64,000 nucleotides of DNA from Sulfurospirillum arcachonense DSM 9755 (GTDB taxonomy: Bacteria; Campylobacterota; Campylobacteria; Campylobacterales; Sulfurospirillaceae): contig NZ_JFBL01000004.1 in NCBI RefSeq assembly GCF_000597725.1, positions 62,001-126,000 of the forward strand. Reading direction: 5' to 3'. Below the pieces are notes generated by a model that was not told the origin of the DNA, did no database searches, and was given only the letters and a program-made list of their open reading frames with translations. Below are positions 21,786 to 55,246 of the stretch, one piece after another. How positions within the stretch are numbered: the first letter of the stretch is position 1; each line of letters opens with the position of its first letter. A program made the translations under genes and the position numbers.

Positions 21786-22651
21786 AAAGAATACTAATCA
21801 CAGGCTCAACAGGTTTTGTAGGAAGCTACTTCATAGATAAATACAAAGATAGATACGACATCCAAAAGTTTAGCTTTCTAAAAGATGATTTTAAATCTTT
21901 ACATGTAAAAGATATAGATGTGGTTTTTCATCTATCAGCTTTGGTTCACCAAATGGGTGGAGCAAGTTTAGAAGAGTACGAAAGGGTGAACATTGCTCAG
22001 ACGTTAGACCTAGCAAAAAAAGCAAAAGAGAGTGGTGTAAAACAGTTTGTTTTTATGAGTACAGTCAAAGTGTATGGGGAAGAAAATAATATAGTTTATA
22101 AAGAAACCTCTACATGTAAACCTCAAGATGAGTATGGTAAAAGCAAGCTAAAAGCAGAAATTGAGCTGTCTAAATTAGAAGATGAGAGTTTTAAAGTAGT
22201 TATCATAAGAACACCTATAGTATATGGATATGGAGTTAAAGCAAATATAAAAAGTCTTGTGCGTTTAGTAAAAAAAATTCCTATTCTTCCATTTGGTAAG
22301 ATACAAAACAAAAGAAGCATGGTTTATATAGGCAATCTTTGTTATATGATAGATGAAATTATAATACAACAAAAATCTGGTATTTTTTTAGCTAGTGATA
22401 ATAAACTTCTAAGTACTTCAAAGCTTTGTGAACTTATCGCGCAAAGTTTAGGCAAAAAAGTATATCTTTTTAAATTACCATTTTTTGAAAGTTTTTTAAA
22501 GTATATAAAGCCATCATTTCATAAAAGATTGTATGGAGATTTGCAAGTTGATAATACTCAAACCAAAGAGATGTTAAACTTACAAAATCTATATACTACA
22601 GAAAAGGGTATTTTATATATGATTCAAGGTGAAAAAAATGATAAGCAATAA
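21782..22651 (+). CDS. NAD-dependent 4-keto-sugar reductase/epimerase (WbpV/WreQ-like)
   Basis: A 289-residue extended SDR with GSTGFVGSY at the N-terminus, FHLSALVHQMGG, the catalytic Ser/Thr in FMSTVKVYGE, and the Tyr/Lys pair in YGKSK. RSMVYIGNL is typical of the WbpV/WreQ group. In Pseudomonas and Rhizobium these act with a WbpM/WreV-type 4,6-dehydratase and a WbpL/WreU-type transferase, making UDP-N-acetylfucosamine or -quinovosamine and loading it on undecaprenyl phosphate. Both partners are nearby (24755-25705 and 25702-27432). It overlaps the preceding gene by four bases. The exact stereochemistry of the product cannot be read from sequence. Confidence 0.75.
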   Translation: MKRILITGSTGFVGSYFIDKYKDRYDIQKFSFLKDDFKSLHVKDIDVVFHLSALVHQMGGASLEEYERVNIAQTLDLAKKAKESGVKQFVFMSTVKVYGEENNIVYKETSTCKPQDEYGKSKLKAEIELSKLEDESFKVVIIRTPIVYGYGVKANIKSLVRLVKKIPILPFGKIQNKRSMVYIGNLCYMIDEIIIQQKSGIFLASDNKLLSTSKLCELIAQSLGKKVYLFKLPFFESFLKYIKPSFHKRLYGDLQVDNTQTKEMLNLQNLYTTEKGILYMIQGEKNDKQ

Positions 22652-24758
22652 ACAAACAATTTTTTATATACTTATAGCATTTACATTTAGTGTTGCTATA
22701 AGACTTATCTGGGTTTATCAATTTAGTGATTATGATGCTTTTATGTGGAATAATCAATTTATGATAAATACCAATGATGGTTACTACTGGGCAGAAGGAG
22801 CTAGAGATATACTTAATTGGGATTTTAGTGAGTTTGCACGTTCTCCAGTTAATACAGCAGGTTCTCAGCTAACAGCTTTTTTTGCTTATATACTGCCTTT
22901 CTCTTTTGAAACAATTATACTTTATATGCCAGTTATTTTAAGCTCACTTATTGTTATCCCTATGATTTTGATAGCTCAGAGTCTAAAAAGGGTAGAGTTT
23001 GGCTTTGTTGCAGCTCTTTTGGCGAGTATAGCTTGGAGTTATTATAATCGTACTATGATAGGTTATTTTGATACTGATATGTTAAATATAGTCTTTCCAA
23101 CTTTTCTTTTATGGTCACTTATCTTAGCAATAAAAACTCATGAAGAGAAGTACTTACTTTTTACAGCATTAGAGATAGTAGCTTATAGATGGTGGTATCC
23201 TCAGAGTTACTCTTTAGAATTTGCATTTTTTGGATTGATACTGTTTTATGTTCTAGTGTTTGAGAGAAAAAACCTTTACATGTACAAGTTACTATCTATT
23301 ATGCTTTTTGCTATGATGGGTTTACCTGGTGTTGTAAGATTTATTACCGTTATAGGAGTATACCTTTTATATAAAAATAAAAAGATTGATTCATACATAT
23401 ATTATCTTTTCGGATTTGCTTTTTTACTTTTTATGTTTACCGGCGGATTTTCTCCTATCTGGGCGCAATTAAAAGGATATGTTTTTAAAGATACTGTTAA
23501 AGTTATGGGAGAAGATTTGCAACTTCATTTTTTCTCAGTCATGCAAACAGTAAGAGAAGCAGGAAAGATTCCATTCGAGACTTTTGCAAATCGTATAAGT
23601 GGACATACTATCACATTTATATTGTCTATAATAGGTTATATTCTATTGGTTTTTAGGCGTAGGGTTATACTTTTAGGACTTCCTATGATTGGCCTTGGAT
23701 TTTTAGCTTATGTAGGAGGACTTAGGTTCACGATATATGCTGTTCCTATGATGGCTTTTGGTATTTCTTATCTTATCTTTACATGTAGTGATTATCTTAA
23801 GAAATTTTTGGCAAATGAACAGAGTAGTTTTTATATAAGAACTTTGTTTATCGTAGTTTGTACCTTAGCGGTTTTATATCCAAATCTTATTCATATAATT
23901 AATTATAAAGTTCCAACTGTGATGAACAAACAAGAAGTTACTGTTTTAGATAAATTAAAAAATATAGCAAATAGAGAAGATTATGTAGTTGCTTGGTGGG
24001 ACTACGGATACCCTATTCGCTACTATAGTAATGTTGATACTCTTATTGATGGTGGAAAGCACAGTGGATCAGTAAACTTCCCAGTCAGTTATATGCTTAC
24101 AAATTCACAACAAAGTTCAGCAAAGTTAGCTAGACTAGATGTAGAATATACTGAGCAAAGATTTTTGATGGAGATAAATAATCAAGATAGAAATCGTACA
24201 AATATAGCTAATATGACTTTAGATAATGGTTTTCAAGATGCAAATGATTTTTTGATTTCTTTATCTACAAATATAAAATTACCTAAAAAAACTAGAGACA
24301 TATATTTTTACCTCCCATTTCGTATGCTTGGTATTTTTCCAACAGTAGCAAAATTTAGCGATATAGATTTGATGAGTGGAAAAATGAAGAGAAGACCTTT
24401 TATATATCAAACAAATAGGTTTAAAGACTCTAAAGAGGTTTTAAATTTAGATCGTGGAATTTTGTTTAATAAAAAAAGTGGAATATTACAAATTGGAAAT
24501 CAAGAAGTTCCAGTAAAAGAGTTTTTAATAACGGCTTATGATAAAAATAAAAAATTGATTAGACAAAGACAAAGCATACATAAGGATGGTAATTTATATT
24601 TGGTATATATGCGTTCATATAATACTTTTTTAGTTTTAGATGAAGATATGATTAATTCTACTTATATACAACTTTTTGTATTTGAAAATTATGACAAAAA
24701 TTTGTTTGAACCAGTTATCTTAGATCCTAGTGCGAAAGTTTATAAGTTAAAAATATGA
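22638..24758 (+). CDS. pglB: PglB-type oligosaccharyltransferase (STT3 family)
   Basis: Membrane enzyme of 706 residues that transfers a preassembled oligosaccharide from undecaprenyl diphosphate to Asn in periplasmic protein sequons. About 12-13 membrane helices occupy the first 420 residues. The first external loop has INTNDGYYWAEGARD (metal-binding Asp), a later loop has YFDTDMLN, and the periplasmic domain carries the STT3 signature WWDYG (residues 453-457) followed by GYPIRYYSNVDTLIDGGKHSG. I chose ATG 22638 with AAGG upstream; a GTG at 22629 would add three residues. It is flanked by the initiating-sugar genes and followed by the C. jejuni-like chromosomal order, so this is the local pgl locus. 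Confidence 0.93.
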   Translation: MISNKQTIFYILIAFTFSVAIRLIWVYQFSDYDAFMWNNQFMINTNDGYYWAEGARDILNWDFSEFARSPVNTAGSQLTAFFAYILPFSFETIILYMPVILSSLIVIPMILIAQSLKRVEFGFVAALLASIAWSYYNRTMIGYFDTDMLNIVFPTFLLWSLILAIKTHEEKYLLFTALEIVAYRWWYPQSYSLEFAFFGLILFYVLVFERKNLYMYKLLSIMLFAMMGLPGVVRFITVIGVYLLYKNKKIDSYIYYLFGFAFLLFMFTGGFSPIWAQLKGYVFKDTVKVMGEDLQLHFFSVMQTVREAGKIPFETFANRISGHTITFILSIIGYILLVFRRRVILLGLPMIGLGFLAYVGGLRFTIYAVPMMAFGISYLIFTCSDYLKKFLANEQSSFYIRTLFIVVCTLAVLYPNLIHIINYKVPTVMNKQEVTVLDKLKNIANREDYVVAWWDYGYPIRYYSNVDTLIDGGKHSGSVNFPVSYMLTNSQQSSAKLARLDVEYTEQRFLMEINNQDRNRTNIANMTLDNGFQDANDFLISLSTNIKLPKKTRDIYFYLPFRMLGIFPTVAKFSDIDLMSGKMKRRPFIYQTNRFKDSKEVLNLDRGILFNKKSGILQIGNQEVPVKEFLITAYDKNKKLIRQRQSIHKDGNLYLVYMRSYNTFLVLDEDMINSTYIQLFVFENYDKNLFEPVILDPSAKVYKLKI

Positions 24759-25705
24759 TTTATTTTTTACTTTTTTTGAGCTCTTTAGGTTTAACGTATA
24801 TGATAAAAAACTATGCTATAAAAAAATCACTTTTAGCAGAAGTAAATGAGCGGAGTTCTCACAGTGTTCCAACTCCTCATGGTGGTGGTATTGCTTTAGC
24901 TATTACTTGGTTTGTAGGGCTCGTTTATCTTTACATGTACGAGATGATAAATCAAGATATATTTTATGCTCTTTTGGTTGGTGTAGTAATCTCTGTAGTG
25001 AGCTTTTTTGATGATATTTTTGATCTTAGTGCTAAGTTTAGAATTTTAGTTCAGGTTTTTGTAGCTTGTTTAGGTTTGTATTTTTTAGGTGGGTTAAACA
25101 GTGTATTGTTTATTGAAAATCAAATAGTAACAAATCTTTTTGCAATTTTACTCGTTATTTGGTTTATTAACCTTTATAATTTTTTAGATGGTATAGACGG
25201 CTATGCCGGTAGTGAAGCTATTTTTCTTGGGGTTGCTGGTTTTATATTGTTTCAAAGTAACTTATTTTTAGTCCTGATTGCTTCAGTAGCAGGTTTTCTA
25301 GTTTGGAATTGGCACAAAGCAAAAATATTTATGGGAGATGTAGGTAGCACACTTTTGGGTTACAATATTGCTATATTTACTATTTATTACTCAAATCAAG
25401 AGCCAACTAACTTATGGATATGGATTATGCTTTTTGGACTTTTTTGGTTTGATGCAACACTAACACTTTTTAGAAGATATAAAAACAAAGAAAAACTAAG
25501 TCAAGCTCATAAAAAACATGCTTATCAAAGATTAACTCAAAGTGGTTGGTCTCATAGTAAAGTGGTTATTTATTCTATTATTGTGAATATTGTTTTATTT
25601 TGTTTAGTATTTTTTATTTCAAATATTATTTTGGCTTTTTTAATATCACTTATAGTATTATATTTTGTTGTAAAATTTATTGATAGGAAGAAAATTTTTA
25701 TATGA
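24755..25705 (+). CDS. WbpL/WecA-like polyprenyl-phosphate sugar-1-phosphate transferase
   Basis: A 316-residue polytopic enzyme of the MraY/WecA family that transfers a sugar 1-phosphate from a UDP-sugar to undecaprenyl phosphate, the first committed step of glycan assembly. Signatures are ERSSHSVPTPHGGGIALAI, the Asp pair in FFDDIFDLSAKFR, NLYNFLDGIDGYAG, AKIFMGDVGSTLLGY and the late AHKKHAYQRL. C. jejuni uses the small monotopic PglC for this step; a polytopic WbpL-type protein next to pglB is a different solution. It overlaps both neighbours by four bases (ATGA), so the three are tightly coupled. Confidence 0.88.
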   Translation: MIYFLLFLSSLGLTYMIKNYAIKKSLLAEVNERSSHSVPTPHGGGIALAITWFVGLVYLYMYEMINQDIFYALLVGVVISVVSFFDDIFDLSAKFRILVQVFVACLGLYFLGGLNSVLFIENQIVTNLFAILLVIWFINLYNFLDGIDGYAGSEAIFLGVAGFILFQSNLFLVLIASVAGFLVWNWHKAKIFMGDVGSTLLGYNIAIFTIYYSNQEPTNLWIWIMLFGLFWFDATLTLFRRYKNKEKLSQAHKKHAYQRLTQSGWSHSKVVIYSIIVNIVLFCLVFFISNIILAFLISLIVLYFVVKFIDRKKIFI

Positions 25706-27432
25706 ATATTAATTTAGATAAGAGAGTTTTAAATTTACTAGTTATTATATTTTTAACGTTTTTAACATTTACTTGGACTTTTTGGGTTTTTCATAAAGAA
25801 ATAAAAGTTGATGTTATATTAGTTGTTATTTTAATTCGTATTTTTGCTTCGATTTTACTTTTTAAAGATTATTCTTTATCTTGGAGTAAAGCCACACAAA
25901 AGACTTTTATTATAAAGAGTTTTGTTTATGTTGGAGCTTTTTGTATTTATATGCCTTTTTATCATGGAGAAGTGAGAATAGCACTTTTTCTTTCAGAACT
26001 TTTTTTCTACTTGTTTATTATAAATTTTTCAATGTATATGTATTATCTTTATATAAATAGAAGTAAAGTAAAAAAGAGTAAAAGTTTAGTTATTTATGGA
26101 GCAGGACGTGCAGGGTTGAAACTAGAAGAAGAGTATCGCAACTCTGCATATAAAATTAAGTATTTTGTCGATGATGATAAATCTTTACATAAAAGAAGTA
26201 TAGATGGAATTCAGATTATTGCCAAAAAGGAATTAAAAGAAAAAATAGATGATAAATATGATTTACTTATCATTGCAATGCCCTCAGCAGAACAAAGACG
26301 TATAAATGTTATTTATGAGAGACTAAATAGTTATTTTGAAGATATACGTATACTTCCTTCTATGGATAAAATTTTAGATGATAAATCATTTGTTTCTCAG
26401 TTAAAAAATATTGGCGTTGAAGATTTACTTGCTCGGCATCCAAAGGACTTAGATAAAGATGTTATATCAAAATTTTTAAAAAATAAAAAAGTACTTGTAA
26501 CAGGTGCTGGTGGTAGCATAGGTAGTGAAATAAGTAGGCAGTGTTTAAAGTATGAAGTCAAAGAATTAACACTTTTAGATCATAGTGAATTTAATCTTTA
26601 CTCAATTACTGAAGAGTTAAATGCACCTATGGTAAAATCAGTTATGCATAGTGTTTTAAATTATAAAGCATTAGAAAAAACTATTTTTACATGTAAACCA
26701 GATATTATCCTTCATGCAGCTGCTTACAAGCATGTTCCTTTGGTTGAAGAAAATATAGAAGAGGGTATTCAAAATAATGTTGTAGGCACTAAAAACTGCA
26801 TAGATTTAGCTATAAAATATAATGTTACAAAGTTTATATTAATATCAACAGATAAAGCAGTTAGACCAACAAATGTTATGGGAACAACGAAACGTATTTG
26901 TGAACTTTATGCTGGTAATGTAGATGCAAAAAATACAGAGATTGCCTCTGTGCGTTTTGGTAATGTATTGGGAAGTAGTGGTTCTGTTATACCAAAATTT
27001 AAAGACCAAATAGAAAGAGGTGGACCAGTTACTGTAACACATCCTGATATTACACGTTATTTTATGCTTATACCTGAAGCATGTGAGCTTGTTCTTCAGA
27101 CAGGAGCTATTGCAAAAGGTAAAGAAATATTTATATTAGATATGGGTGAACCTATCAAAATAGTTGATTTAGCGCATAAAATGATAGAATTATCAGGTAA
27201 AAAAGATATTCAAGTGGAGTTCTCTGGGCTTCGACCAGGTGAAAAACTTTATGAAGAATTACTTATAAATGATAGTGATGAAAAAACACAGTATGAGTCT
27301 ATCACGGTGGCTAGAAATACAGATTATAATATTGATGATTTAAATGAAGATATAAAAGAACTTCTTACATGTAAAGATAAATTAACACAACTTAAAAAAA
27401 TTGTTCCAGAATTTGATCATAATAAAGGTTGA
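25702..27432 (+). CDS. pglF: PglF/WbpM-type UDP-GlcNAc 4,6-dehydratase
   Basis: A 576-residue membrane-anchored nucleotide-sugar dehydratase. Four N-terminal membrane segments are followed by a first Rossmann-like region (VIYGAGRAGLKLEEEYR) and the catalytic SDR domain. That domain has GAGGSIGSEISRQ from about residue 268, HAAAYKHVPLVEEN, and STDKAVRPTNVMGTTKR, the Met-x3-Lys variant that replaces Tyr-x3-Lys in this subfamily. It makes UDP-4-keto-6-deoxy-GlcNAc, the precursor of QuiNAc, FucNAc or bacillosamine. Neighbouring WbpV-like and WbpL-like genes suggest that its product is reduced and loaded onto undecaprenyl phosphate. No PglD acetyltransferase or PglE aminotransferase adjoins it, so bacillosamine is less likely. 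Confidence 0.88.
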   Translation: MNINLDKRVLNLLVIIFLTFLTFTWTFWVFHKEIKVDVILVVILIRIFASILLFKDYSLSWSKATQKTFIIKSFVYVGAFCIYMPFYHGEVRIALFLSELFFYLFIINFSMYMYYLYINRSKVKKSKSLVIYGAGRAGLKLEEEYRNSAYKIKYFVDDDKSLHKRSIDGIQIIAKKELKEKIDDKYDLLIIAMPSAEQRRINVIYERLNSYFEDIRILPSMDKILDDKSFVSQLKNIGVEDLLARHPKDLDKDVISKFLKNKKVLVTGAGGSIGSEISRQCLKYEVKELTLLDHSEFNLYSITEELNAPMVKSVMHSVLNYKALEKTIFTCKPDIILHAAAYKHVPLVEENIEEGIQNNVVGTKNCIDLAIKYNVTKFILISTDKAVRPTNVMGTTKRICELYAGNVDAKNTEIASVRFGNVLGSSGSVIPKFKDQIERGGPVTVTHPDITRYFMLIPEACELVLQTGAIAKGKEIFILDMGEPIKIVDLAHKMIELSGKKDIQVEFSGLRPGEKLYEELLINDSDEKTQYESITVARNTDYNIDDLNEDIKELLTCKDKLTQLKKIVPEFDHNKG

Positions 27433-27502: not shown

Positions 27503-28423
27503 ATGGTAGTTCGTGAAATACAACAGTTTTCAGAAGTTAGGCCAAGAGCAAGAGCTTATTTTTGTTATCTTTTTACCAGAAATATGCCTAATCGTTTGCC
27601 TAGTCCAGATTTAAAGACAATAGAAAATTCACTTGATAAAATAGTAAATGAAGTAGATAGTTTTGAAGCATTGTATGTTCTTGATGCAAGTGGAAAACAA
27701 GTTACTGAAAATTTAACGAATAAACAAGAGTACAAAGGTGGATTAGGAACCAATAGAAGTAATAAATCTTATTTTTATCGCGCAGTTCGTCAAAAAAGAT
27801 GTGTACTGACTGATCCATATCCTTCTATTTTAACCAATTCATTGACAGTTACAGCGGCATATCCTATTTATGACGATAAATCAGATTTAAAATATGTAGC
27901 GTGTATGGATATCTCTTTAGTAGATGTTTTAAAGATAGCTCATCCATCTTCACTTCAAGGCGTATTTGATAATTTTATAAAGTTTGCATATAGTACATTT
28001 TCATTGGCTCTTTTATTAGTAGCATTTTTACTTTTTTACAATGGTTTAGCAAGTCTTATTTCTCATGGATTTGTAAGTGCAATTGAAAATATAGAAATGA
28101 TGTTTAAATCAACAATTCTTTTGACACTAGCATTAGCCATATTTGATTTGGTAAAAACCATATTTGAAGAAGAAGTTTTAGGACGGCATAAACGAGATCA
28201 TACCACAGGTATTCATAAGACCATGGTTCGGTTTTTAGGCTCAATCATTATAGCCTTAGCAATAGAAGCATTGATGTTAGTATTTAAATTTGCTATTACA
28301 GATCCTACTCATATAGTTTCTGCTGTTTATCTTATAGGTGGGGTGTCAGTTCTTTTAGTGGCACTTGCTTTTTACGTAAAATCTGTATCACAAAAGGAAG
28401 AAGACGATGATAGCTCTAATTGA
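27503..28423 (+). CDS. pglG: PglG-like membrane protein with a PDC/Cache-type sensor domain
   Basis: A 306-residue protein. Residues about 35-150 form a PDC/Cache-like fold (ALYVLDASGKQVTEN, NRSNKSYFYRAVRQKRCVLTDPYPS, LTVTAAYPIYDD, YVACMDISL). Four hydrophobic segments follow. There is no classical first membrane helix before the sensor region. Lying directly after a pglF homologue and before cheY (with hisHA in between) it matches the position I recall for pglG (Cj1119c) of C. jejuni, whose function is not established. A plausible promoter with a TAAAAT -10 lies at about 27467. Its role in glycosylation is not shown by the sequence; sensing a small ligand is inference from the fold. Confidence 0.65.
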   Translation: MVVREIQQFSEVRPRARAYFCYLFTRNMPNRLPSPDLKTIENSLDKIVNEVDSFEALYVLDASGKQVTENLTNKQEYKGGLGTNRSNKSYFYRAVRQKRCVLTDPYPSILTNSLTVTAAYPIYDDKSDLKYVACMDISLVDVLKIAHPSSLQGVFDNFIKFAYSTFSLALLLVAFLLFYNGLASLISHGFVSAIENIEMMFKSTILLTLALAIFDLVKTIFEEEVLGRHKRDHTTGIHKTMVRFLGSIIIALAIEALMLVFKFAITDPTHIVSAVYLIGGVSVLLVALAFYVKSVSQKEEDDDSSN

Positions 28424-29018
28424 TTACAATATGGGCAATTTGAGAAGTGTTATAAATTTATTTGAGAAAATAAATACAAAAATAGAAGTTATAAAAGACC
28501 CTGATCAATTAAAAAATTTTGATAAAGTTATATTGCCTGGTGTTGGTGCATATAAAGATGCCATGGAAAATTTGAACAGCAATGGTATGAAAGAATCAAT
28601 ACTTGAGTTCTCTAAGAGCGGTAAACCCCTTCTTGGCATTTGCTTAGGTATGCAACTTTTACTTGATAGTAGTGAAGAGTTTGGTTTTACCCAAGGTTTA
28701 GGACTTATCCCTGGAATTGTAAAAGAGTTTGATAAATCAAAATTTGATCATAAATTAAAAGTTCCTCATATGGGCTGGAATGAGCTTTTTGTGGAGCGTG
28801 ATTCAAAACTTTTTGAAGGAATGAGTAAGGAGATTTATCTCTATTTTGTACACAGTTTTCATGCTACATGTAAAGATGAATATGTTATTGGAAAAACATT
28901 TTATGGTTATGACTTTGCGAGTGCTATAGAAAAAGACAATATTTATGGTGTACAACCTCATCCTGAAAAGTCACATGATAATGGATTGAAAATTTTACAA
29001 AATTTTACAAAAATATAA
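28407..29018 (+). CDS. hisH: Imidazole glycerol phosphate synthase glutaminase subunit HisH
   Basis: A 203-residue class I glutamine amidotransferase. It provides ammonia to HisF for making imidazole glycerol phosphate and AICAR in histidine synthesis. Key parts are [14 protein letters not shown] at the N-terminus, [11 protein letters not shown], the nucleophile Cys in [11 protein letters not shown], and the His/Glu of the triad in VQPHPEKS near the C-terminus. It overlaps the pglG-like gene by 17 bases and is followed by hisA after 8 bases. Some HisH paralogues serve nonulosonic-acid or flagellin modification, but adjacency to hisA supports the histidine pathway. No hisF is in the window. 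Confidence 0.92.
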
Positions 29019-32993: not shown

Positions 32994-33639
32994 TACATCA
33001 ACACAGGTAATAGCAAAAGAAGGATGGAAATATATATTATTTGTATTTTGTCTTTTTGTTGTATCTGTGTGGTTTGATGTTTTTTCATGGGTCTTTTTTG
33101 TACTTTTAGTCTTTACAGGATTTTTATTTAGGAACCCAGAAAGGCTTCCTGCTGAAGATGATGATATGGCAGTACTTTCTCCATGTGATGGAACAATAAC
33201 TAATATTTCAAAATTCTTATACACTGATGGGAAAGAATATATAAAAGTAGAGATACAAAAAACTCTTACAGAAGTATCAATTTTGAGAGCTCCTACGGTT
33301 ATGAATATAAAAGAGTGTCAAAGAAGACATGGTCTTTTTCTAGCAGCTAGTTCAAACTTAAGTAAAGAGTTAGGTGAAAAAGTTACCCTTACATGTAAAA
33401 GTAGTTATAGTGAACTTTTTATGAATATAAATGCTGGTAGATTTGCTAGAAAAATTGAGCTATTTAAAACTGTTGGACCATTGAAATCAGCGCAAAGATT
33501 TGGTATTTTGGTTGAAGGTAATGTTGAATTATATTTAGCCTTGGATACAAGAATTAAAGTGGCAGTTGGAGATGAAGTAAAAGCTGGAGAGAGTGTATTA
33601 GGATACTTTGCACATAAAGGAAATATAAGTGAAAACTAA
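32983..33639 (+). CDS. Phosphatidylserine decarboxylase-related protein
   Basis: A 218-residue protein with two short N-terminal membrane segments (YILFVFCLFVVSVWFDVFSWVFFVLLVF) and the psd-like core LSPCDGTITNI, KVEIQKTLTEVSILRAPTVMN, INAGRFARKIELF and the C-terminal SAQRFGILVEGNVELYLALD. True short-form decarboxylases cleave themselves at Gly-Ser in an RFGS-like motif to make the pyruvoyl cofactor. In my alignment by eye the matching position reads Gly-Asn, so the pyruvoyl-forming Ser seems absent. It sits between ftsH and pssA as in Campylobacter. The neighbour pssA makes phosphatidylserine, so a lipid role is likely but decarboxylase activity is doubtful. Confidence 0.75.
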   Translation: MKNNTSTQVIAKEGWKYILFVFCLFVVSVWFDVFSWVFFVLLVFTGFLFRNPERLPAEDDDMAVLSPCDGTITNISKFLYTDGKEYIKVEIQKTLTEVSILRAPTVMNIKECQRRHGLFLAASSNLSKELGEKVTLTCKSSYSELFMNINAGRFARKIELFKTVGPLKSAQRFGILVEGNVELYLALDTRIKVAVGDEVKAGESVLGYFAHKGNISEN

Positions 33640-42640: not shown

Positions 42641-42823
42641 AACTGCCTTTTTAAATCTCTTTACATGTAATAAATAATTTGTACTTTTAATATAAGAGTG
42701 TATTTTTTGTATCTATTATAGCACTAATTTGCTGTATCTTTAATGAGAGAAGATTTAGGGAAAAAAAAGGGTGAAGTTTTTAAAAGATAACTAAATTTTG
42801 TCAATTTTGCACAAGTTTTATTT

Positions 42824-43630: not shown

Positions 43631-43873
43631 GCATAGGGATGGATTCGAATAAATAATATACTTTTTGAAAAGCAAATTTTTAATTATTAACAAGACACAA
43701 CATAAGCCGAGTTAAGCTAATACTTTAACTACGACTATTACGCATAAAATATGACAATTTCATTATTCATAAATGTGTTTACTGTCTCGTTACGGACACA
43801 GTTTTTTATGTAAAATCTATTTTCCATTAACGTACTTTTTTCTATATTTTATTATAAAGATAAAATACTAATT
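43631..43873. other. Intergenic boundary between sodNX and the defence-like operon
   Basis: No credible gene is seen in these 243 bases. They contain a GGATTCGAAT near 43641, weakly like a tRNA T-arm, then two hairpin-forming stretches: GTTAAG...CTTTAAC near 43712 and ACTGT...ACAGT with a T-run at 43781-43807. The last 60 bases are very AT-rich and probably hold the promoter of the next operon. The hairpins could belong to a small RNA or to a decayed element marking an insertion boundary. Confidence 0.35.
43781..43807 (+). terminator. Terminator-like hairpin with T-run
   Basis: ACTGT pairs with ACAGT around an inner two-base-pair extension and a GTTACG loop, followed by six T residues. It lies about 150 bases after sodX, too far for a simple sodX terminator, so it may end a small RNA or protect the downstream operon from read-through. 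Confidence 0.4.
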
Positions 43874-45370: not shown

Positions 45371-45379
45371 AGGCTATAT

Positions 45380-46813: not shown

Positions 46814-47965
46814 ATGAAAAAATTAGCTATTAAGAACTTTAAATGTTTTGAAGATACAGAAGTTGAGTTTAAAAACTTGACAATTCTTGCTGGAGCAAAT
46901 GGAGCAGGAAAATCTACAGTAATTCAAGTTCTATTATTACTGAAACAATCTTATGATATTCATAGTGTTAGTTTAGATAATATGAAGTATTTATATTTAA
47001 ATGACTACTATTGTGAATTAGGAACAGTAGGAGAAGTTTTATATGCAGGTTTTGAAGACGATACAATGTCTTTTAGTTTTTATAATGATGATAATGCAAC
47101 TAGGGAACTTTTATGTAAAGGACAAACCAAAGGTAATAAATTAAATATTATAAAATCAATTCCAAATGAAATAGAAAGATCTATGAAAACAACTACTAGT
47201 TTTTTATATAACTTTGACTTTATCAGTGCTGATAGATTTGGGCCGAAAAATTATCATCATGCAGATGGAAATTTTTCAGAAATGAAAGTTGGAAAATTTG
47301 GAGAGTATACAAGTATTATTTTAAATAAAGAAATAAATAATGGAACATTTGTTGAAGCATTAAATAATACATTGTCTTTTATATTTGGAAATATTGAAAT
47401 AGAACCAAAGTCAATTGATGAAGCAAATATATTTATGTATAAAATCAGAAATACAAAAGACACTAATCTAGGGTTTAAAACACCTGTTAATATGCCTTAT
47501 GGAGTTAGCTATGTTTTACCTATTATAGTTAGCTGTTTAAGTAGGTTACATAAAAAAGAAGTATTAGATGAGACAGATACTATCATTATTGAAGAACCTG
47601 AGAGTCATTTACATCATGAAGTAGAATTAAATAGTAATATTGGAACAATTTTAATAGAAAATCCTGAAGCTCATTTACATCCATCAGCACAATCAAGATT
47701 AGGGATATTTTTATCAGAAATGGCAAATGCAGGTTTAAAAATTATTCTGGAGACACATAGTGATCATATAATTAATGGTATAAGAATAGCTATAAAAAAG
47801 AAAACAATAGATAATAATAATGTACTTTTTAATTTCTTTGAACAAGGCGAAAAATTAGGCCAAAATACTATACGAGAAATTAATATAGATAAAAATGGTA
47901 ATTTAAGTGAATGGCCAAAAGGATTTTTTGATCAATATGAAAATGATTTAATGGATTTAATGTAA
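46814..47965 (+). CDS. AAA/ABC-type ATPase, DUF3696-like (defence-like operon gene 3)
   Basis: A 383-residue SMC/RecF-like ATPase. The N-terminus KLAIKNFKCFEDTEVEFKNL leads to Walker A GANGAGKST (residues about 27-35). The C-terminal half has the Walker B/signature region and ETHSDHIINGIRIAI (switch His), the pattern of OLD/DUF3696-type defence ATPases. An oddity: the Walker B block occurs twice, as IIIEEPESHLHHE near residue 258 and ILIENPEAHLHPSAQS near 280, 22 residues apart, as if this segment had been tandemly duplicated and diverged. It shares its last base with the next start (TAATG). It is probably the energy or signalling component of the operon. Confidence 0.82.
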   Translation: MKKLAIKNFKCFEDTEVEFKNLTILAGANGAGKSTVIQVLLLLKQSYDIHSVSLDNMKYLYLNDYYCELGTVGEVLYAGFEDDTMSFSFYNDDNATRELLCKGQTKGNKLNIIKSIPNEIERSMKTTTSFLYNFDFISADRFGPKNYHHADGNFSEMKVGKFGEYTSIILNKEINNGTFVEALNNTLSFIFGNIEIEPKSIDEANIFMYKIRNTKDTNLGFKTPVNMPYGVSYVLPIIVSCLSRLHKKEVLDETDTIIIEEPESHLHHEVELNSNIGTILIENPEAHLHPSAQSRLGIFLSEMANAGLKIILETHSDHIINGIRIAIKKKTIDNNNVLFNFFEQGEKLGQNTIREINIDKNGNLSEWPKGFFDQYENDLMDLM

Positions 47966-48912
47966 TGTATTTATTTATTAATCATTATGCTTTTGATCAG
48001 CCAAATGAAGAAATAAGTAAAAAAGATGTAATTGAGGCTTTAGATAACTTAGGAAAATTATTTATAAATTTAAAAAAACAGAATATTGACTTAATAATTA
48101 ATCAAAATTTATCAAACGTAAGAGTTTTAGGTGATTCATTATATAAATACATTAAAAATCTTGATTCTAATACAAGGTTATCATTAATTTCTTTATTGGC
48201 AAAAATAAAGCCTTTTTGTAGTGATACAGATACTTCTTTTGAGAAAGATGAAATACTTGCATTTGATAATTGTAAAGAAAAAGTTGATCAAACTGATATT
48301 TGTTATACATTTTTATCATGTGCTTTGTATTATTTAAGTCCTATATTAACGATTAATAATATATGTAGTAAAAAACAATTTTTAAATGAAGAAATAAATA
48401 TTTCTTGTGATAGTAAAGAATATATATTGTCTAATTTTCATTTAGTACCTTATTCTGAAACAATAAAAAAACTATATATATATCAAAAAGAAAAAAAGTT
48501 AAATGAATTAAATAAAATAGATAATTGGTTTGAATATAAAGATTTTGTAAATAAAAACTTCTCTTACTGTAAAATAACTGATCATTGTCTTGAATCGTTA
48601 AAAGATAGATATTCTTATACAAATAGTTATTCTAAAGATTTTAGAAATAAAGTTCAAAGGCTTAATGATTTTGTAGATAAAAATGGTGGAAATCCATTAG
48701 CTATTGATTTTAAAGAAATAAGTCAAAAACATTATTCTCCAGAATCTTCAACAAGAATTGATGATCTTAAAAGAAGTCATTCTGGTATAAAAAACTTTTT
48801 AGGAAAAAGAGTAAATCTTAATTGGCATACATGGATTCAAAAAGATGACAGAGTTTATTTTGAAAGAGAAATAGATCATATTTGCTTTGTTCATTATGAA
48901 AAAAAAGTTTAA
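47965..48912 (+). CDS. Unknown protein (defence-like operon gene 4)
   Basis: A 315-residue soluble protein that I do not recognise. The N-terminal 180 residues are mostly helical and start MYLFINHYAFDQPNEEI. The second half has FSYCKITDHCLESLKDRYSY and a C-terminal domain of about 75 residues, GNPLAIDFKEISQKHYSPESS...SGIKNFLGKRVNLNWHTWIQ, ending in DRVYFEREIDHICFVHYEKKV. The late His-Cys-His (DHICFVHYE) and earlier DHC residues could form a catalytic or metal site. It overlaps the ATPase gene by one base and is followed by a hairpin, so it closes the operon. In similar operons the last gene is often the effector, which is only a guess here. Confidence 0.6.
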   Translation: MYLFINHYAFDQPNEEISKKDVIEALDNLGKLFINLKKQNIDLIINQNLSNVRVLGDSLYKYIKNLDSNTRLSLISLLAKIKPFCSDTDTSFEKDEILAFDNCKEKVDQTDICYTFLSCALYYLSPILTINNICSKKQFLNEEINISCDSKEYILSNFHLVPYSETIKKLYIYQKEKKLNELNKIDNWFEYKDFVNKNFSYCKITDHCLESLKDRYSYTNSYSKDFRNKVQRLNDFVDKNGGNPLAIDFKEISQKHYSPESSTRIDDLKRSHSGIKNFLGKRVNLNWHTWIQKDDRVYFEREIDHICFVHYEKKV

Positions 48913-48950
48913 TAAAAAATAAGAATTATTGCTAAAAATTTTCAAATACT

Positions 48951-48976
48951 AGTTTAAACATTAAACTTTTTAATTT
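48951..48976 (+). terminator. Intrinsic terminator after the defence-like operon
   Basis: A perfect seven-base inverted repeat (AGTTTAA/TTAAACT) with a three-base loop lies 39 bases after the last stop and is followed by TTTTTAATTT. It separates the operon from the convergent hipA gene. Confidence 0.6.
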
Positions 48977-48985
48977 AATAATTAT

Positions 48986-50143
48986 TTATAGTAAAACCAC
49001 AAACTTTTCTCTAAGTTTTTCCAAAAATTCCTTTACATGTAAGGATTTTTCGCTTTCTATTCTTTTTTCTATTTTTTCTTTGACGAGGTCAATTGCATTT
49101 AAGCATTCATCAAAAAGAGTATTTGCTTCTTTTGTACTCAAATCACAACTTTCCTTAGCAAATCGAATTAAAAATTTTCTACTCCACCACTTTTTACTTC
49201 CAAGAAGATAAAGAGCTGAGATGTCGTTTTTAATGTAAAGAGTTGTACAGACCACATCATAAGCTGGGGCTATTTTTATGTTGGTTATATCTTCGTAAAC
49301 TAAGCCAAAGTTTTTTAAATGGGCATCTCCATTTTGCAATAGATTATTTATCACTATCATTTTAAAGAAATTACAAAGAGAGTTTTTTTTGTGTTTAGGG
49401 CTGACAAATATTTTTATACTTTTAGCTATTTGTTCATAAGAGCCTTCGTATTTATCTTCTGCACTTTTTGCTTGGAGTACACACATATCTTCAAAACCAA
49501 TGTAGCTTCCATCTTCTTTTACATCAAATCTTTTCATAATAAAAAGCTGATTATCGTCAGAGATAAAAAACTCTGGTACTTCTATACCTGCAAGTTTTAC
49601 AACACTCATACAATAGTACTCATTTAGAGCCAAGTGTGGGTACTCTTCTCCCCATGACTTTACTATGTACTCTTGTAAAGGAATGGTAACTTTGTCTTTT
49701 ACTTTTGCTAAAACTTTTGGTTGCACCCCACTCAAAGCAGAATTAAGCGCAAACTTACTTACAAGTTCATCAAAGAGATGTTCACTCTCAGGATGGAGTA
49801 GATTTTCTAAACTAAGTGTTTTTTCTTGAGCGTTTGCATCTGATGCATAATTTACTCTTCCATTGATGCTACTTGCCATAAGTTTTAGTAAACCAAAATC
49901 ATCTGTTTTAGCTATCTTAGAAAAGTGTTTTTTTATGATAGAAAGAAGGTAGCCTTCAGGTAGGTGCATTTCAAATATGGGATGAAGTTTGTTGTTTACA
50001 TAACTCTTTGTGCGAACAGGCATACTCAAAGATACAAAACTCTCTTTATCATGAGTAGCATAATCAAATACATATTCACTATTTTCTAGAGTGAGAGTTC
50101 CTGCTTGTTCATTTGAAACTTTTACATGTAAACTATCTCTCAT
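48986..50143 (-). CDS. hipA: HipA-family serine/threonine kinase toxin
   Basis: A 385-residue HipA-like kinase; the E. coli protein phosphorylates glutamyl-tRNA synthetase and induces dormancy. The N-terminal subdomain begins DSLHVKVSNEQAGTL. LSGVQPKVLAKVKD is the ATP-binding region, FIMKRFD follows, and the catalytic loop is NGDAHLKNFGLV with its Asp near residue 273. The metal-binding Asp is in APAYDVV. It is slightly shorter than E. coli HipA (440). It is coded just after hipB, overlapping it by 11 bases, so it is a complete hipBA toxin-antitoxin module. Its codon use and repeated TTACATGTAA copies match the core genes, arguing against very recent transfer. Confidence 0.9.
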   Translation of the reverse strand: MRDSLHVKVSNEQAGTLTLENSEYVFDYATHDKESFVSLSMPVRTKSYVNNKLHPIFEMHLPEGYLLSIIKKHFSKIAKTDDFGLLKLMASSINGRVNYASDANAQEKTLSLENLLHPESEHLFDELVSKFALNSALSGVQPKVLAKVKDKVTIPLQEYIVKSWGEEYPHLALNEYYCMSVVKLAGIEVPEFFISDDNQLFIMKRFDVKEDGSYIGFEDMCVLQAKSAEDKYEGSYEQIAKSIKIFVSPKHKKNSLCNFFKMIVINNLLQNGDAHLKNFGLVYEDITNIKIAPAYDVVCTTLYIKNDISALYLLGSKKWWSRKFLIRFAKESCDLSTKEANTLFDECLNAIDLVKEKIEKRIESEKSLHVKEFLEKLREKFVVLL

Positions 50144-50375
50144 CTTTTAGTTCCTCAAAAGTTGGGAAAGGAGATTTTTCTTTACATGTAAGCTCAAAAC
50201 CAAGATAATCGATTATTTGCAATACTTTTTTGATTCCAACATCAGAGCTTGTTGCATTTTCAAGTGAGCTTATAGTTGCTCTTGATATATTTAAATCTTT
50301 AGCTAACTGCTCTTGTGTAATCTTTTTATCTTTTCTAAGTTTAGAGATGTATTTTCCAAAATCTTTTGTATCCAT
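50133..50375 (-). CDS. hipB: HipB-like XRE-family antitoxin
   Basis: An 80-residue helix-turn-helix protein: DFGKYISKLRKDKKITQEQLAKDLNISRATISSLENATSSDVGIKKVLQIIDYLGF is the XRE fold. As HipB does, it should bind and neutralise the kinase and repress its own operon. It is the first gene of the pair. The C-terminal tail (CKEKSPFPTFEELKDER) is the part that in HipB family members contacts the toxin. A repeated TATTTTGTACA lies upstream as a candidate operator. Confidence 0.88.
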   Translation of the reverse strand: MDTKDFGKYISKLRKDKKITQEQLAKDLNISRATISSLENATSSDVGIKKVLQIIDYLGFELTCKEKSPFPTFEELKDER

Positions 50376-50445: not shown

Positions 50446-50467
50446 AAAGCCTTACATGTAAGGCTTT
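50446..50467 (-). terminator. copA terminator built on the TTACATGTAA palindrome
   Basis: A perfect 22-base palindrome with TTACATGTAA at its centre and AAAGCC/GGCTTT arms starts three bases after the copA stop. Reading the minus strand it is followed by a T-run, so it is a standard intrinsic terminator. The motif at the centre is the dispersed repeat of this window. Confidence 0.75.
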
Positions 50468-50470
50468 AAA

Positions 50471-52645
50471 TTAGAGCTTTGCAAACTTCAGTCTTAACGA
50501 ATTTAGAACAACACTCACAGAACTAAAGCTCATAGCAATTCCTGCGTACATTGGGCTTAGCATGACTCCTATGATTGGGTAGAGTACACCTGCTGCTAGT
50601 GGGATTCCTAGAGTATTGTAGAAAAATGCCCAAAAGAGGTTTTGTTTGATGGTTTTCATGGTTTTGACTGAGAGGTTGATACTTTTCATGACTGAGTTTA
50701 GTTCATTGTTCATGAGGATAATATCTCCTGCATCTTTGGTTATGTCTGAGCCGCTATTGAGTGCCACTCCAATGTCAGCTTGTTTTATAGAAACGCTGTC
50801 GTTTATGCCATCTCCTACAAACATGACTTTAGAATCATTTTGTAAGTCTTTGATGACTTTGTACTTTTCATCTGGTAAAACTTCTGCGTAAACGAGTTCA
50901 ATCCCTATTTTACTTGCGAGTGTTTTTGCTGTTGTTTCGTTGTCTCCTGTGAGTAAAATTGGTACGATGTTTTTCTTTTTCAAGTCAGTTATGAGTTGCT
51001 CTGCTCCCTCTTTTAAACTATCTTCTAAAGAGATAACTCCAACACAAACAGAGTCAATACTCGCTAGTACTGCACCATATCCTTGTTTTAAGATACCCTC
51101 AAAACTCTCCAATATTTGAGGAGATATAGAGATATTGTTTTTCTCTAAAAGAGTGAGATTTCCTACAAGGATTTTTTGATTTTCATAGTCTGCACTCACT
51201 CCAAGTCCTGCGAGGATTTGTAAGTCTTGTATGTTTTTGTCTAGTTTTATCTCTTTTTGTTTTGCATACTTGACTATGGCTTGGCTGATTGGGTGTTCGC
51301 TTTGAAGTTCAGTTGATGCAATGATGCTAAGGTATTGCTCATCGATAAACATATCTTTTACCGAGATTTCGCCTTTTGTAAGAGTTCCGGTTTTATCAAA
51401 AACAGCATATTTTATATCTTTGATGATTTCTAGGATTTCAGGATTTTTTATGAGGATACCTTCTCGCGCACCTTTTCCCACTGAACTCACTATTGCAATT
51501 GGAGTAGCAAGACCAAGCGCACAAGGACAAGAGATGATAAGAACAGAGATAGAAGCCAAGATAGCACTCAAAGTATCGCCAACGATAAAGAACCAAGCAA
51601 AAAACGTGATGATTGAGATAGCTATGACAGTAGGAACAAAGATATTTGCTACTTTGTCTGCAAATCTTGCAATAGGAAGTTTTTTGCTTCCCGCATCGTT
51701 TAACAAAGAGATGATTTTTGACAGTGTTGTATCGTGGCTTTGTTTTAAAACTTTTACTTTTAAAGTGCCTGTTTTGTTTATGGTTCCTGCTATGACTTCA
51801 TCGCCTATGGTTTTATAAACAGGCATTGGCTCACCTGTTATCATAGAAGTATCGATTTCAGCTTTTCCCTCGATGATAACCGCGTCAGTAGAGACTTTTT
51901 CACCTTGTTTTATCAGCACAATATCGTTTACATGTAAATCTTTTGCAAGGACTGATTTTATCTCTGCATTTTCATCTATGAGGTTGGCATTCAAAGGAGC
52001 CAAATCCATAAGGTTTTTCAAAAAATCAGTTGCTTTACCTTTACTTCTCTCTTCTAAAAGACGACCAAGAAGTATAAAAGTGATGATAACACTTGCTCCA
52101 TCGAAGTAGACAAAACGGAGGTGTTCAGGGAAGAGGTCTGGCAAAAGAACCACAAAAGCAGAGTAAAAGTAAGCGGCACTTGTTCCAAGGGCAACTAAAA
52201 CATTCATGTCATAGTTTTTATGACTAATAGCTTTAAAAGCAAGACTATAAAATCTTCCTCCAGGGTAAAATTGTACAATAGAAGCCAGAGCAAAGATAAT
52301 AAAAGGATTGATGTCTTTGATAGGGAAAAACATCAAAACAAACATACATGTAGTGATAAAAGCAGAGATTAAAAAGAGGTTTTTTAGTTTTATATAACTC
52401 TGTTTTTTTGCAAGTTCTAAAGCTTGTATATCTTCTTCTACACCATATCCTAGCTTTTTGATTTTTGTTATGAGCTGGTTTTTATCTAAAAGTTGGGTAT
52501 CTATAGTAAATTCCCCACTATTAGAAGTGAAGTTTACTTTAGAGTTATCTAAACCTTCCATTTTGTTTACTACTCGTTCTATTCCATTTGAACAGTTTAC
52601 ACAAGTCATGCCTGATATGTTTAGATTTATTTTTTCTTTTGACAT
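50471..52645 (-). CDS. copA: Copper-exporting P1B-type ATPase CopA
   Basis: A 724-residue heavy-metal ATPase. One N-terminal metal-binding domain has GMTCVNCSNGIERV (Cys at about 14 and 17), followed by eight membrane helices. The ion-pathway motif is CPC in ISCPCALGLATP (near 373), the phosphorylation site is DKTGTLTKG (Asp about 415), then HP in SEHPISQA, GDN and GDGIND. The last helices carry YNTLGIPLAAG and MSFSSVSVVLNSLRL, the YN/MxxSS signature of Cu(I)-specific pumps. It exports Cu(I) from the cytoplasm. It overlaps the arsR-type gene by 19 bases and forms one operon with it and a CopZ-like chaperone. Confidence 0.95.
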   Translation of the reverse strand: MSKEKINLNISGMTCVNCSNGIERVVNKMEGLDNSKVNFTSNSGEFTIDTQLLDKNQLITKIKKLGYGVEEDIQALELAKKQSYIKLKNLFLISAFITTCMFVLMFFPIKDINPFIIFALASIVQFYPGGRFYSLAFKAISHKNYDMNVLVALGTSAAYFYSAFVVLLPDLFPEHLRFVYFDGASVIITFILLGRLLEERSKGKATDFLKNLMDLAPLNANLIDENAEIKSVLAKDLHVNDIVLIKQGEKVSTDAVIIEGKAEIDTSMITGEPMPVYKTIGDEVIAGTINKTGTLKVKVLKQSHDTTLSKIISLLNDAGSKKLPIARFADKVANIFVPTVIAISIITFFAWFFIVGDTLSAILASISVLIISCPCALGLATPIAIVSSVGKGAREGILIKNPEILEIIKDIKYAVFDKTGTLTKGEISVKDMFIDEQYLSIIASTELQSEHPISQAIVKYAKQKEIKLDKNIQDLQILAGLGVSADYENQKILVGNLTLLEKNNISISPQILESFEGILKQGYGAVLASIDSVCVGVISLEDSLKEGAEQLITDLKKKNIVPILLTGDNETTAKTLASKIGIELVYAEVLPDEKYKVIKDLQNDSKVMFVGDGINDSVSIKQADIGVALNSGSDITKDAGDIILMNNELNSVMKSINLSVKTMKTIKQNLFWAFFYNTLGIPLAAGVLYPIIGVMLSPMYAGIAMSFSSVSVVLNSLRLKFAKL

Positions 52646-53286: not shown

Positions 53287-53318
53287 AAGAAGAACCTTTA
53301 CATGTAAAGATTCTTCTT
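53287..53318 (-). terminator. mscS hairpin built on the TTACATGTAA palindrome
   Basis: Eight-base arms (AAGAAGAA/TTCTTCTT) enclose a 14-base palindrome containing TTACATGTAA, with one G-U pair between them, just after the mscS stop. The T-run after it is weak, so termination may be inefficient. Confidence 0.55.
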
Positions 53319-53323
53319 ATGTG

Positions 53324-54400
53324 TTAAATCATTTTATTTTCAGGTAGATTTTCAAAATAAATAGATTGACTTGGAAATGCAAAACTCGCATCATTTTGTT
53401 CTACTATTTTCATCATTTTAAGATTTATATCTTCTCTTACATTCAAATACTCTTTCCAAACAGTAGTTGTTGTGAAAAAATAACAAAAGACACTTAAAGA
53501 ACTGCCTTCAAATTCATCAAAATTCACCATAATACTATCTTGATGCACATCTTTATGATTTTTAAGTAAAGCTCTTAACTCTTCTAATATTTTTTCCATT
53601 TGAGTAGTTGTTGTAGAGTAAGTTAACCCTAGTCTCATCTTGATTCTTCTTTTGCCCATACGTGACCAGTTTGTAATAGCGGTATTTGCTATGACCGCAT
53701 TTGGAACATTGACTAAAGCTTGAGCAAATGTTCGGATTTTTGTAGAGCGGATGCCTATCTCTTCAACAGTTCCTTCAACATCAGGAGTAAGTACCCAATC
53801 ACCTATTCTAAATGGACGGTCAGTAAATATAACAAGTGATCCAAAAAGATTTGCTGCGGTGTCTTTTGCTGCAAGTGCAAGTGCCATACCTACAAGACCC
53901 AAAGATGCAACAAAAGCACTTACATTTATGCCCCACTCACTAAGTATGCTCATAGCTCCGATTATGATTATAATAATTCTAAAAGTTTTGATTATAAAGT
54001 TTTCTATATCGGCACTTAATTCTTTACCAAAATTAAGTGAAAATTTCTTTACGATGTTTGAAGATTTATCGAGGGCTTTATAAAAAATGAGAAAGATGAT
54101 AAAGATCATAAATGATTTAATCATTGAATTTAAAAAAGGTTCAATGCCTTCTATTTTTAACCACTCTTTTGCCATGTAAAAACCAAGTAGTATAAATGAG
54201 AGTTTTAGAGGGCTTTCTAATACTTCAAGCATATCATCATCAATAGTAGTTTTTGTTTTTTTGGTAAATCTTTTTAACATTTCCAAAATAGTTTTACTAA
54301 AGATAGTTTTTCCTAAAAACGATAAAGATATAATTACTATACTAATAATAATATCGATAACTTTTAAACCAAATATACCATATTCTAAATAAGCTTCCAT
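53324..54400 (-). CDS. MscS-family mechanosensitive channel
   Basis: A 358-residue channel with about four or five membrane helices. The pore-lining helix matches the MscS type: NVSAFVASLGLVGMALALAAKDTAANLFGSLVIF, followed by DRPFRIGDWVLTPDVEGTVEEIGIRSTKIRTF, the beta domain of the family. It opens under membrane tension to release solutes in osmotic downshift. The long open frame extends upstream to 54547, but that part looks non-coding (Cys/Tyr-rich); I start at 54400 (MEAYLEYG), which has AAGG seven bases upstream on the coding strand. It ends at a hairpin and is divergent to the next gene. Confidence 0.88.
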   Translation of the reverse strand: MEAYLEYGIFGLKVIDIIISIVIISLSFLGKTIFSKTILEMLKRFTKKTKTTIDDDMLEVLESPLKLSFILLGFYMAKEWLKIEGIEPFLNSMIKSFMIFIIFLIFYKALDKSSNIVKKFSLNFGKELSADIENFIIKTFRIIIIIIGAMSILSEWGINVSAFVASLGLVGMALALAAKDTAANLFGSLVIFTDRPFRIGDWVLTPDVEGTVEEIGIRSTKIRTFAQALVNVPNAVIANTAITNWSRMGKRRIKMRLGLTYSTTTTQMEKILEELRALLKNHKDVHQDSIMVNFDEFEGSSLSVFCYFFTTTTVWKEYLNVREDINLKMMKIVEQNDASFAFPSQSIYFENLPENKMI

Positions 54401-54481
54401 AAACAACCTTGTTTGTAAAGATAAACGAATTTTAACACAAATTTCTCTATAATAATATACATTACATGTAAAGGTTTCAAG

Positions 54482-55246
54482 ATGCGAATAATAATCATGA
54501 TATTTGCTATCTTTTCTTCTCTTTTTGCTACAGACATAAGTGCTCAATATAAAGTTACTTTTGGGATATTTGGAGAGATTGGTATAGCTAAAACAAATTT
54601 ACATGTAAATGATGATAATAGTTACAAAATAACAGTACATGCAAAATCAACAGGTCTAGCAAATGCTTTAAGCGGACAAAGAGAAGAGTGGTATGTAAGT
54701 GTAGGGAAGGTAGATAAAAAAGGTATATTGGTCCCTGATTATTATGAAAAAACAGTGCAAAGATATAGCCGAAAAGTCACTTTGAATGCAGATAGTTTGA
54801 TACTCAAAAAAGATATAAAAAAGTATATATTTTCACACGATACAAAAGAGTTAAAACTAGAGATAACAAGGTATAGAAATGACAAAGTAAGTCATGAAGT
54901 AAAAAAAGGGGATTATTATGCTCCTAATGATTTGTTATCGCTGTTTTTTAACTTTAAAAAGATGTTGCCAAGTTTGGTAGTTACAAAAGCTTCAAAGTTT
55001 TATGCTGTTGGAGCCAATAAAAAAGATGGTAGGATAGACATCCAGCCTTTAAAAAATGAAAAAAAGATAAAAAAAGAATTAGAGTGGAGAGATGGACATA
55101 TGATGAAGGTAGTTATAAATGATAAAATATTTGCAAGTAAAAAAGGAGAACTTTTAATCAATCTTCAAGATGATGGATTGTGCTTAGATGCTGTTTTAAA
55201 AGATGTTATTTTCTTTGGAGATATTAGAGGAACAAAAATTGATTAG
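54482..55246 (+). CDS. Exported protein, DUF3108-like
   Basis: A 254-residue protein with a short signal sequence (MRIIIMIFAIFSSLFA) and a beta-rich body: QYKVTFGIFGEIGIAKTNLHV, YKITVHAKSTGLANALSGQREEWYVS and YYEKTVQRYSRKVTLN. This pattern, in which an exported beta protein transforms a repeated Y-x-V/I-x-A-K/S strand, fits the DUF3108 family, a set of periplasmic or outer-membrane-facing proteins of unknown function. It is followed by a transporter gene that starts inside its end. I cannot suggest a specific job. Confidence 0.6.
   Translation: MRIIIMIFAIFSSLFATDISAQYKVTFGIFGEIGIAKTNLHVNDDNSYKITVHAKSTGLANALSGQREEWYVSVGKVDKKGILVPDYYEKTVQRYSRKVTLNADSLILKKDIKKYIFSHDTKELKLEITRYRNDKVSHEVKKGDYYAPNDLLSLFFNFKKMLPSLVVTKASKFYAVGANKKDGRIDIQPLKNEKKIKKELEWRDGHMMKVVINDKIFASKKGELLINLQDDGLCLDAVLKDVIFFGDIRGTKID

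Follow-up and report, generated by a model that had tools for sequence, protein, structure and literature searches.

A dispersed palindrome maintained site by site in Sulfurospirillaceae genomes as a candidate DNA uptake sequence with dialects

Introduction

To our knowledge, the Neisseriaceae and the Pasteurellaceae are the only groups with documented dense self marks of known role in their genomes, and the cyanobacterial highly iterated palindrome 1 (HIP1) is still unexplained. The uptake signal sequence (USS) of the Pasteurellaceae is asymmetric. The DNA uptake sequences (DUS) of the Neisseriaceae exist in dialects and have copies arranged at terminators (PMC3630211), while for HIP1 a model of methylation-linked maintenance has been proposed (PMC4390886), from which a shared methyltransferase is predicted in the genomes that carry the palindrome. 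Campylobacter jejuni needs a self mark for uptake as well, namely the CtsM-methylated RATTY (PMC8468864). Here, we analyzed a dispersed ten-base palindrome, TTACATGTAA, in a 64,000-nucleotide stretch of the genome of Sulfurospirillum arcachonense DSM 9755 (contig NZ_JFBL01000004.1, positions 62,001 to 126,000; this whole stretch is called the window below, and coordinates refer to it), and followed it through the rest of the genome, through related genomes and through viral contigs. A preliminary description of the window knew of no such motif in Campylobacterota, and our searches agree, as no earlier description of TTACATGTAA or of its eight-base core TACATGTA as a bacterial genomic mark was found in the open-access literature (subscription papers and preprints were outside the search).

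Results

The window holds 16 exact copies of TTACATGTAA, all within 21899–54608, where dinucleotide-preserving shuffles averaged 0.32 and never exceeded 2. These are the exact copies already counted in the preliminary description, and its seven near copies turned out to be the remaining sites of the core TACATGTA, which occurs 23 times in total, always inside 21900–54607. Across all 42 contigs of the genome (2.66 Mb), TTACATGTAA was found 567 times and the reversed-pattern control three times, so the count near expectation that would have refuted the preliminary description was not seen. The invariant unit is TACATGTA, with 204 sites against approximately 7–11 expected in 464 kb of the source genome (the sample used for the consensus, near-miss and gene-position results below) and a whole-genome density of 0.45 per kb; the motif-rich genomes sampled carry one core site per 1.6–2.3 kb. 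The sites share a 14-bp symmetric consensus, CTTTACATGTAAAG, i.e., C-T-T-TACATGTA-A-A-G, in which the half-sites vary independently (outer C/G at both ends in 28 cases, at one end in 59, at neither in 23), and the true motif is therefore a dyad. Tolerance for deviation is limited to the outer base pair of the motif, as variants with one mismatch at any of the six inner positions are no more frequent than background (232 observed, ~236 expected). An identical consensus with an equally sharp edge recurs in G187 (41% GC, 1,496 TTACATGTAA; 90 near-misses observed, 96 expected), and an equally sharp edge with a weaker consensus in G130, which belongs to another family. We infer that, if only the exact core is favoured, an equilibrium would show just this pattern, with the exact word in excess and near-misses not. 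Markov-model ratios of observed to expected counts range from ~20-fold to several hundred-fold across genomes of 29–41% GC (~20–100-fold for the 8-mer, hundreds-fold for the 10-mer); a relative with 41% GC has 235 copies per 400 kb where 0.25–0.6 are expected, and 14.6 kb of DNA at 47% GC still holds seven core sites. Separately from the palindrome, a non-palindromic word, TAACTCTT/AAGAGTTA, is ~2.6 times over-represented in the G000 contigs L001–L020 together with the window (154 vs. 59), and CTCTTTGG is over-represented in a similar way in G187.

Site retention between species was scored in the ftsH region, in alignments of orthologous DNA obtained from pairwise BLAST runs. The comparisons share genomes and are not independent, but the difference from the controls is large. 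At 80–92% identity, TACATGTA was retained in 60 of 75 cases (80%) vs. 30% for control 8-mers; at 76–80% identity, in 188 of 258 (73%) vs. 18%; and at 70–76% identity, in 296 of 690 (43%) vs. 10%. Codons of conserved amino acids that lie inside sites were identical in 257 of 288 cases, while 174.5 were expected from the same codons elsewhere, and this excess indicates that the constraint acts on the DNA. The motif is maintained genome-wide as DNA, site by site and independently of protein coding, at hundreds to ~1,500 places.

Sites lie in coding as well as in non-coding DNA, as previously described: 161 of the 204 core sites are within genes, with no bias along the gene length, and the rest are between genes, where site density is ~3 times higher. 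The occurrence in both orientations, also pointed out before, holds but is trivial for any palindrome, and an orientation skew is undefined for such a motif. Within 60 bp past a stop codon, 19 sites were found in 6.3 kb, compared to five in 9.4 kb within 60 bp before a start (density ratio 5.7, Fisher P 2e-4), upstream regions being the part of intergenic DNA with the lowest density. DNA just past stops is 3- to 6-fold denser in sites than other intergenic DNA. All four site pairs closer than 40 bp are intergenic, and some intergenic copies form terminator-like hairpins. Around the closed chromosomes of G187 and G130 density is even, and the gradient of a replication-axis motif (of the KOPS, matS or Noc/SlmA type) was not seen in these samples.

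According to the preliminary description, the motif is missing from exactly those segments that look acquired. Three segments indeed lack TACATGTA: 1–21898 (0 vs. 9.9 expected), a surface-glycan-type cluster of 27% GC with three asparagine synthases, a polysaccharide flippase, an epimerase and an MBOAT acyltransferase; 43437–49032 (0 vs. 2.5 expected), with PAPS-reductase-like, GmrSD_N and AAA genes (25.5% GC); and 54609–64000 (0 vs. 4.2 expected), which includes VirB4/CagE, CagX and TrbI type IV secretion genes (28.7% GC). The GC content of the site-bearing part of the window is 31.5%. Pooled, the three segments (36.9 kb, this window only) have no site where 16.7 are expected. At genome density, the probability of finding no site is 5e-5 for 1–21898, 0.08 for 43437–49032 and 0.014 for 54609–64000, which makes the absence strong singly only for the first. 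The word "exactly" did not hold, as a hipA/hipB-like toxin-antitoxin module (48986–50375) lies inside the site-bearing backbone and holds three sites; this module is an exception to the absence from accessory-type DNA and has therefore apparently been resident for long. As to the second segment, four genes at 43874–48912 encoding PAPS-reductase-like, GmrSD_N and AAA/DUF3696 proteins and an unassigned 315-aa protein, with low GC and no sites, constitute a candidate defence operon.

The main motif-bearing family among the genomes compared (f1) is Sulfurospirillaceae, the closest FtsH matches being Sulfurospirillum records; the locus of S. diekertiae JPD-1 has nine TACATGTA in 21.9 kb, and none was present in any Campylobacter or Helicobacter locus examined, those of C. 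jejuni included. Among 399 genomes of the order, most members of genus g2 carry ~870–1,500 TTACATGTAA and a few 49–608, while nearly all other families have 0–11, with the exception of some members of f17 (340–367 in G106, G130 and G378). A wider sample of the phylum adds G509 of family f11 (1,059) and G521 of f17 (380) and is otherwise at background; the spread outside Sulfurospirillaceae is thus patchy and comprises two further families. In the f11 genus g93, TTACATGTAA occurs 78 times in G505, nine times in G465 and once in G517, vs. the 1,059 copies of G509. Either G509 gained the trait independently or the trait survives there as an island, and this case is useful for finding the reader gene.

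Several relatives that are poor in TTACATGTAA are rich in a variant, CTACATGTAG (TTACATGTAA/CTACATGTAG counts of 22/225 in G004, 15/202 in G218, 15/220 in G274 and 23/186 in G308), which means that the mark has dialects, at least two; both forms are used in G185 and G336. The consensus of G218, sampled over 251 kb, is C-T-C-TACATGTA-G-A-G, switched only at the symmetric ±5 pair, and the 14-mers of the two dialects are CTTTACATGTAAAG and CTCTACATGTAGAG. Both forms are scarce or missing in the closed genomes of the close relatives G042 (7/1) and G083 (49/2). No other motif stood out in 420 kb of the motif-poor G083, nor in samples of 20–40 kb from G042, G318, G348, G021 and G233, which were underpowered, since 20 kb did not suffice to reveal even the known dialect of G218. 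Near-misses in G083 are at expectation (158 vs. 149), and hence no recent mass decay is visible. Repeats around TACAGGCGGAACACT also occur several times in G083 (L141–L160, L306) and are probably a mobile or CRISPR-type repeat.

The genes expected of a transformation machinery were checked in the same genomes. ComEC is present in 378 of 399 genomes and T2SSF in all 58 tested, so that neither is informative as a predictor of the motif. An operon of secretin, AAA, TPR, T2SSE-MshEN and T2SSF genes is present wherever the contig reaches, at full length with few exceptions, and its layout is that of the cts genes of C. jejuni (the cts gene list is given in PMC8308473). A broken operon in motif-less genomes was considered and rejected, as the apparent losses (two genes in G083, one in G143) were artefacts of the ORF-overlap filter.

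Regarding viruses, the IMG/VR contig L245 (11.9 kb) has seven TACATGTA at 1396–6040, approximately at host density, and its translations (Zot-type ATPase, secretin, small coat-like protein, insertion sequence transposase) are filamentous-phage-like; should the mark be an uptake signal, its presence on a filamentous phage of the host would be remarkable. The unrelated-looking viral contigs L187, L192, L196, L198, L200, L215, L244, L252 and L259 (29–57% GC) contain pairs or arrays of (A)ACTTTACATGTAAAGT(T), with copies mostly some 50–330 bp apart in the gaps between small genes. These copies are probably a phage regulatory element that matches the same 14-mer by chance, and were discarded as a lead to a reader protein since no shared DNA-binding gene was seen beside the arrays.

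Along the window, the first TTACATGTAA (21899–21908) is located within an epimerase-family ORF (21782–22651) and is followed by CTACATGTAA at 22110–22119, with the core TACATGTA intact and the site common to the relative L062. A pglB/STT3-like ORF (22629–24758) includes TTACATGTAC at 23276–23285, identical in L062, and TTACATGTAG at 23779–23788; TTACATGTAC recurs at 24931–24940 in a glycosyltransferase-4 ORF (24755–25705), and a polysaccharide-synthesis ORF (25702–27432) has TTACATGTAA at 26687–26696 and again at 27365–27374, the latter identical in L061 and L062. The CTACATGTAA copy at 28864–28873, in a glutamine-amidotransferase ORF (28407–29018), is common to L061. Both relatives share TTACATGTAA at 33389–33398 (ORF directly downstream of ftsH), 37639–37648 (TPR ORF, 36218–38521) and 38521–38530 (junction of the latter with a serS-like ORF), as well as the core of GTACATGTAA at 34478–34487, intergenic between a CDP-alcohol phosphatidyltransferase ORF and a leuA-like ORF. 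An intergenic TTACATGTAA at 42661–42670, close to the start of an engA/der-like ORF (41243–42640), has its core in common with L062, and the copy at 43427–43436 is the final site ahead of the defence-like insert. Beyond this insert, TTACATGTAA is found at 49033–49042, close to the 3' end of the hipA-like ORF (48986–50143), at 50122–50131 within the same ORF, and at 50182–50191 within the helix-turn-helix (hipB-like) ORF (50133–50375). On the minus strand, AAAGCCTTACATGTAAGGCTTT (50446–50467) is a 22-bp perfect palindrome centred on the site 50452–50461, intergenic and directly past the stop of a P-type ATPase gene, and it folds into a 9-bp stem with a CATG loop followed by a U run, i.e., a terminator-like hairpin. 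The P-type ATPase ORF (50471–52645) contains TTACATGTAA at 51928–51937 and ATACATGTAG, with the core TACATGTA intact, at 52344–52353. The remaining TTACATGTAA copies are at 53298–53307, intergenic, 17 bp past a mechanosensitive-channel stop and within a longer imperfect inverted repeat, at 54462–54471 in the mechanosensitive-channel ORF (53324–54547), and at 54599–54608, the last site of the window, which was classed as intergenic although a 254-aa ORF (54482–55246) overlaps it.

Discussion

Judged from sequence, there is about an even chance that the 14-bp palindrome CTTTACATGTAAAG, with TTACATGTAA at its core, is a self-recognition (DNA uptake) sequence that serves the cts/ComEC transformation machinery. 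A putative dimeric or symmetric receptor would bind fragments bearing the mark, together with a cts-type pilus (resembling the mannose-sensitive haemagglutinin pilus) and ComEC, and transformed cells would restore or spread marked alleles because marked fragments are the ones bound. By such a molecular drive, sites would accumulate in core genes while new islands would stay unmarked until exchanged many times, and a change in receptor specificity would move a whole genome to another dialect. The uptake reading accounts for the core bias, the dialects, the terminator-side siting and the copy number. The broader proposal, held with slightly less than even confidence, is that this may be a third, independently evolved uptake-sequence system, situated in Campylobacterota and characterized by a palindrome, a symmetric receptor, all-or-none core specificity, at least two dialects and repeated gain and loss across Sulfurospirillaceae and two other families. 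Several points weigh against uptake. ComEC and the uptake operon are equally intact in the motif-less G042, G083, G318 and G348, so the presence of the machinery does not predict the motif; no receptor gene or candidate was found, and the open-access literature searched gave no account of natural transformation for Sulfurospirillum. We know of no palindromic uptake sequence, and known uptake sequences come with near-matches, whereas in all the motif-rich genomes sampled, sites with one mismatch at one of the six inner positions do not exceed background. Palindromes are also never mentioned in the paper on Neisserial uptake sequences (PMC3630211).

The most probable competitor is the binding site of an abundant, dimeric nucleoid-organising or chromosome-segregation protein with about a thousand sites. 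It is favoured by the symmetric site with independent halves, the even chromosomal spread and the strong per-site conservation, and absence from new islands would be expected here as well. The lack of a gradient along the replicon, however, leaves a gradient-type organising role unsupported, the preference for post-stop DNA and the close pairs there serve no need that is obvious for such a protein, and a core chromosomal function would rarely be so patchy across families or switch dialects. The motif is also essentially absent from the complete genomes of the close relatives G042 and G083; we regard this explanation as unlikely, though still credible. A HIP-like origin, in which a DNA methyltransferase, probably an orphan, acts on the palindrome and the sites are both created and kept by mismatch correction linked to methylation or by another function, agrees with the palindromic form, with outermost bases that are tolerant around a centre that is not, a tendency also known for HIP1 (PMC4390886), and with alternative forms in relatives, as with alternate HIPs. 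Nevertheless, a family-level test with five Pfam families found no DNA-methyltransferase family common to the motif-rich G000, G130 and G106: D12 and N6_N4 methyltransferases are absent from G000, the closed G130 has no D12, N6_N4 or C5 and only larger N6_Mtase proteins (504–659 aa), and the closed G106 has two D12 enzymes, neither C5 nor N6_N4, and no more than a weak N6_Mtase/Eco57I match of 238 aa. Consequently, a HIP1-type or methylation cause is disfavoured and seems decidedly improbable to us. The recognition site of a restriction-modification system was rejected, as the motif is over-represented instead of avoided and there is no common methyltransferase.

Like a Chi-type recombination signal for AddAB/RecBCD-type repair, the motif is short, dispersed and over-represented, and it occurs in core DNA but not in islands. 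Chi sites are, however, asymmetric and modestly enriched, which is at odds with a palindrome whose 8-mer and 10-mer reach the enrichments given above and which forms dialects inside one genus, so that we consider this role highly improbable. The terminator-like hairpins at some intergenic copies and the CTTTACATGTAAAG arrays in some phages would suit an operator of a global transcription regulator, or a sequence that is mainly a transcription terminator. Given the intragenic majority (161 of 204 sites) and the poor upstream regions, most copies cannot act as either, and as a general explanation this is already largely refuted, with very little probability left to it. For a compositional or mutational artefact of AT-rich DNA, only the low GC of the window could be invoked; it is refuted by the Markov-model excess, the seven core sites in 47% GC DNA and the conservation at the DNA level, and its probability is negligible. 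The preliminary description had likened the motif to uptake sequences, to HIP1 and to chromosome-organising or methylated sites. The likeness to a self mark is supported by the excess, the empty segments, the conservation, the dialects and the post-stop siting, while methylation lost ground for want of a common family and a gradient-type organising role because of the even spread.

If an uptake role is confirmed, Campylobacterota would have a new uptake-sequence system, one that is palindromic and has dialects. With its palindromic form, its dialects and its absence from some close relatives, the mark offers a clean comparative system in which the reader could be found and origin, switching and decay could be tested. 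Sulfurospirillum are organohalide-respiring bacteria of bioremediation interest, and practical uses would be to learn how DNA can be made acceptable to them and to flag recently acquired DNA in their genomes.

By analogy, TTACATGTAA would work like a DUS/USS or a HIP mark, with membership in either class not established. With HIP1 and the alternate HIPs it has in common a dispersed palindrome, tolerant ends as opposed to the centre and alternative forms in relatives (PMC4390886), but HIPs have a matching methyltransferase and none is common to the three motif-rich genomes here. The comparison with RATTY of C. jejuni involves the same order, discrimination of self DNA and homologous cts/ComEC machinery (PMC8468864); RATTY is very short and methylated, while TTACATGTAA is long, hugely over-represented and has no evident methyltransferase. 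Unlike the USS, the mark described here has symmetric core and flanks, although both are dense, dispersed self marks with a strong core and weaker flanks (PMC7811141). It differs from DUS in being a perfect palindrome with independent half-sites, in that its near-matches are not enriched and in that no ComP-like receptor was identified, and resembles them (PMC3630211) in its length of ~10–12 bp, its hundreds to thousands of copies in and between genes, its core-genome bias, its paired copies near gene ends and its single-base dialects among close relatives.

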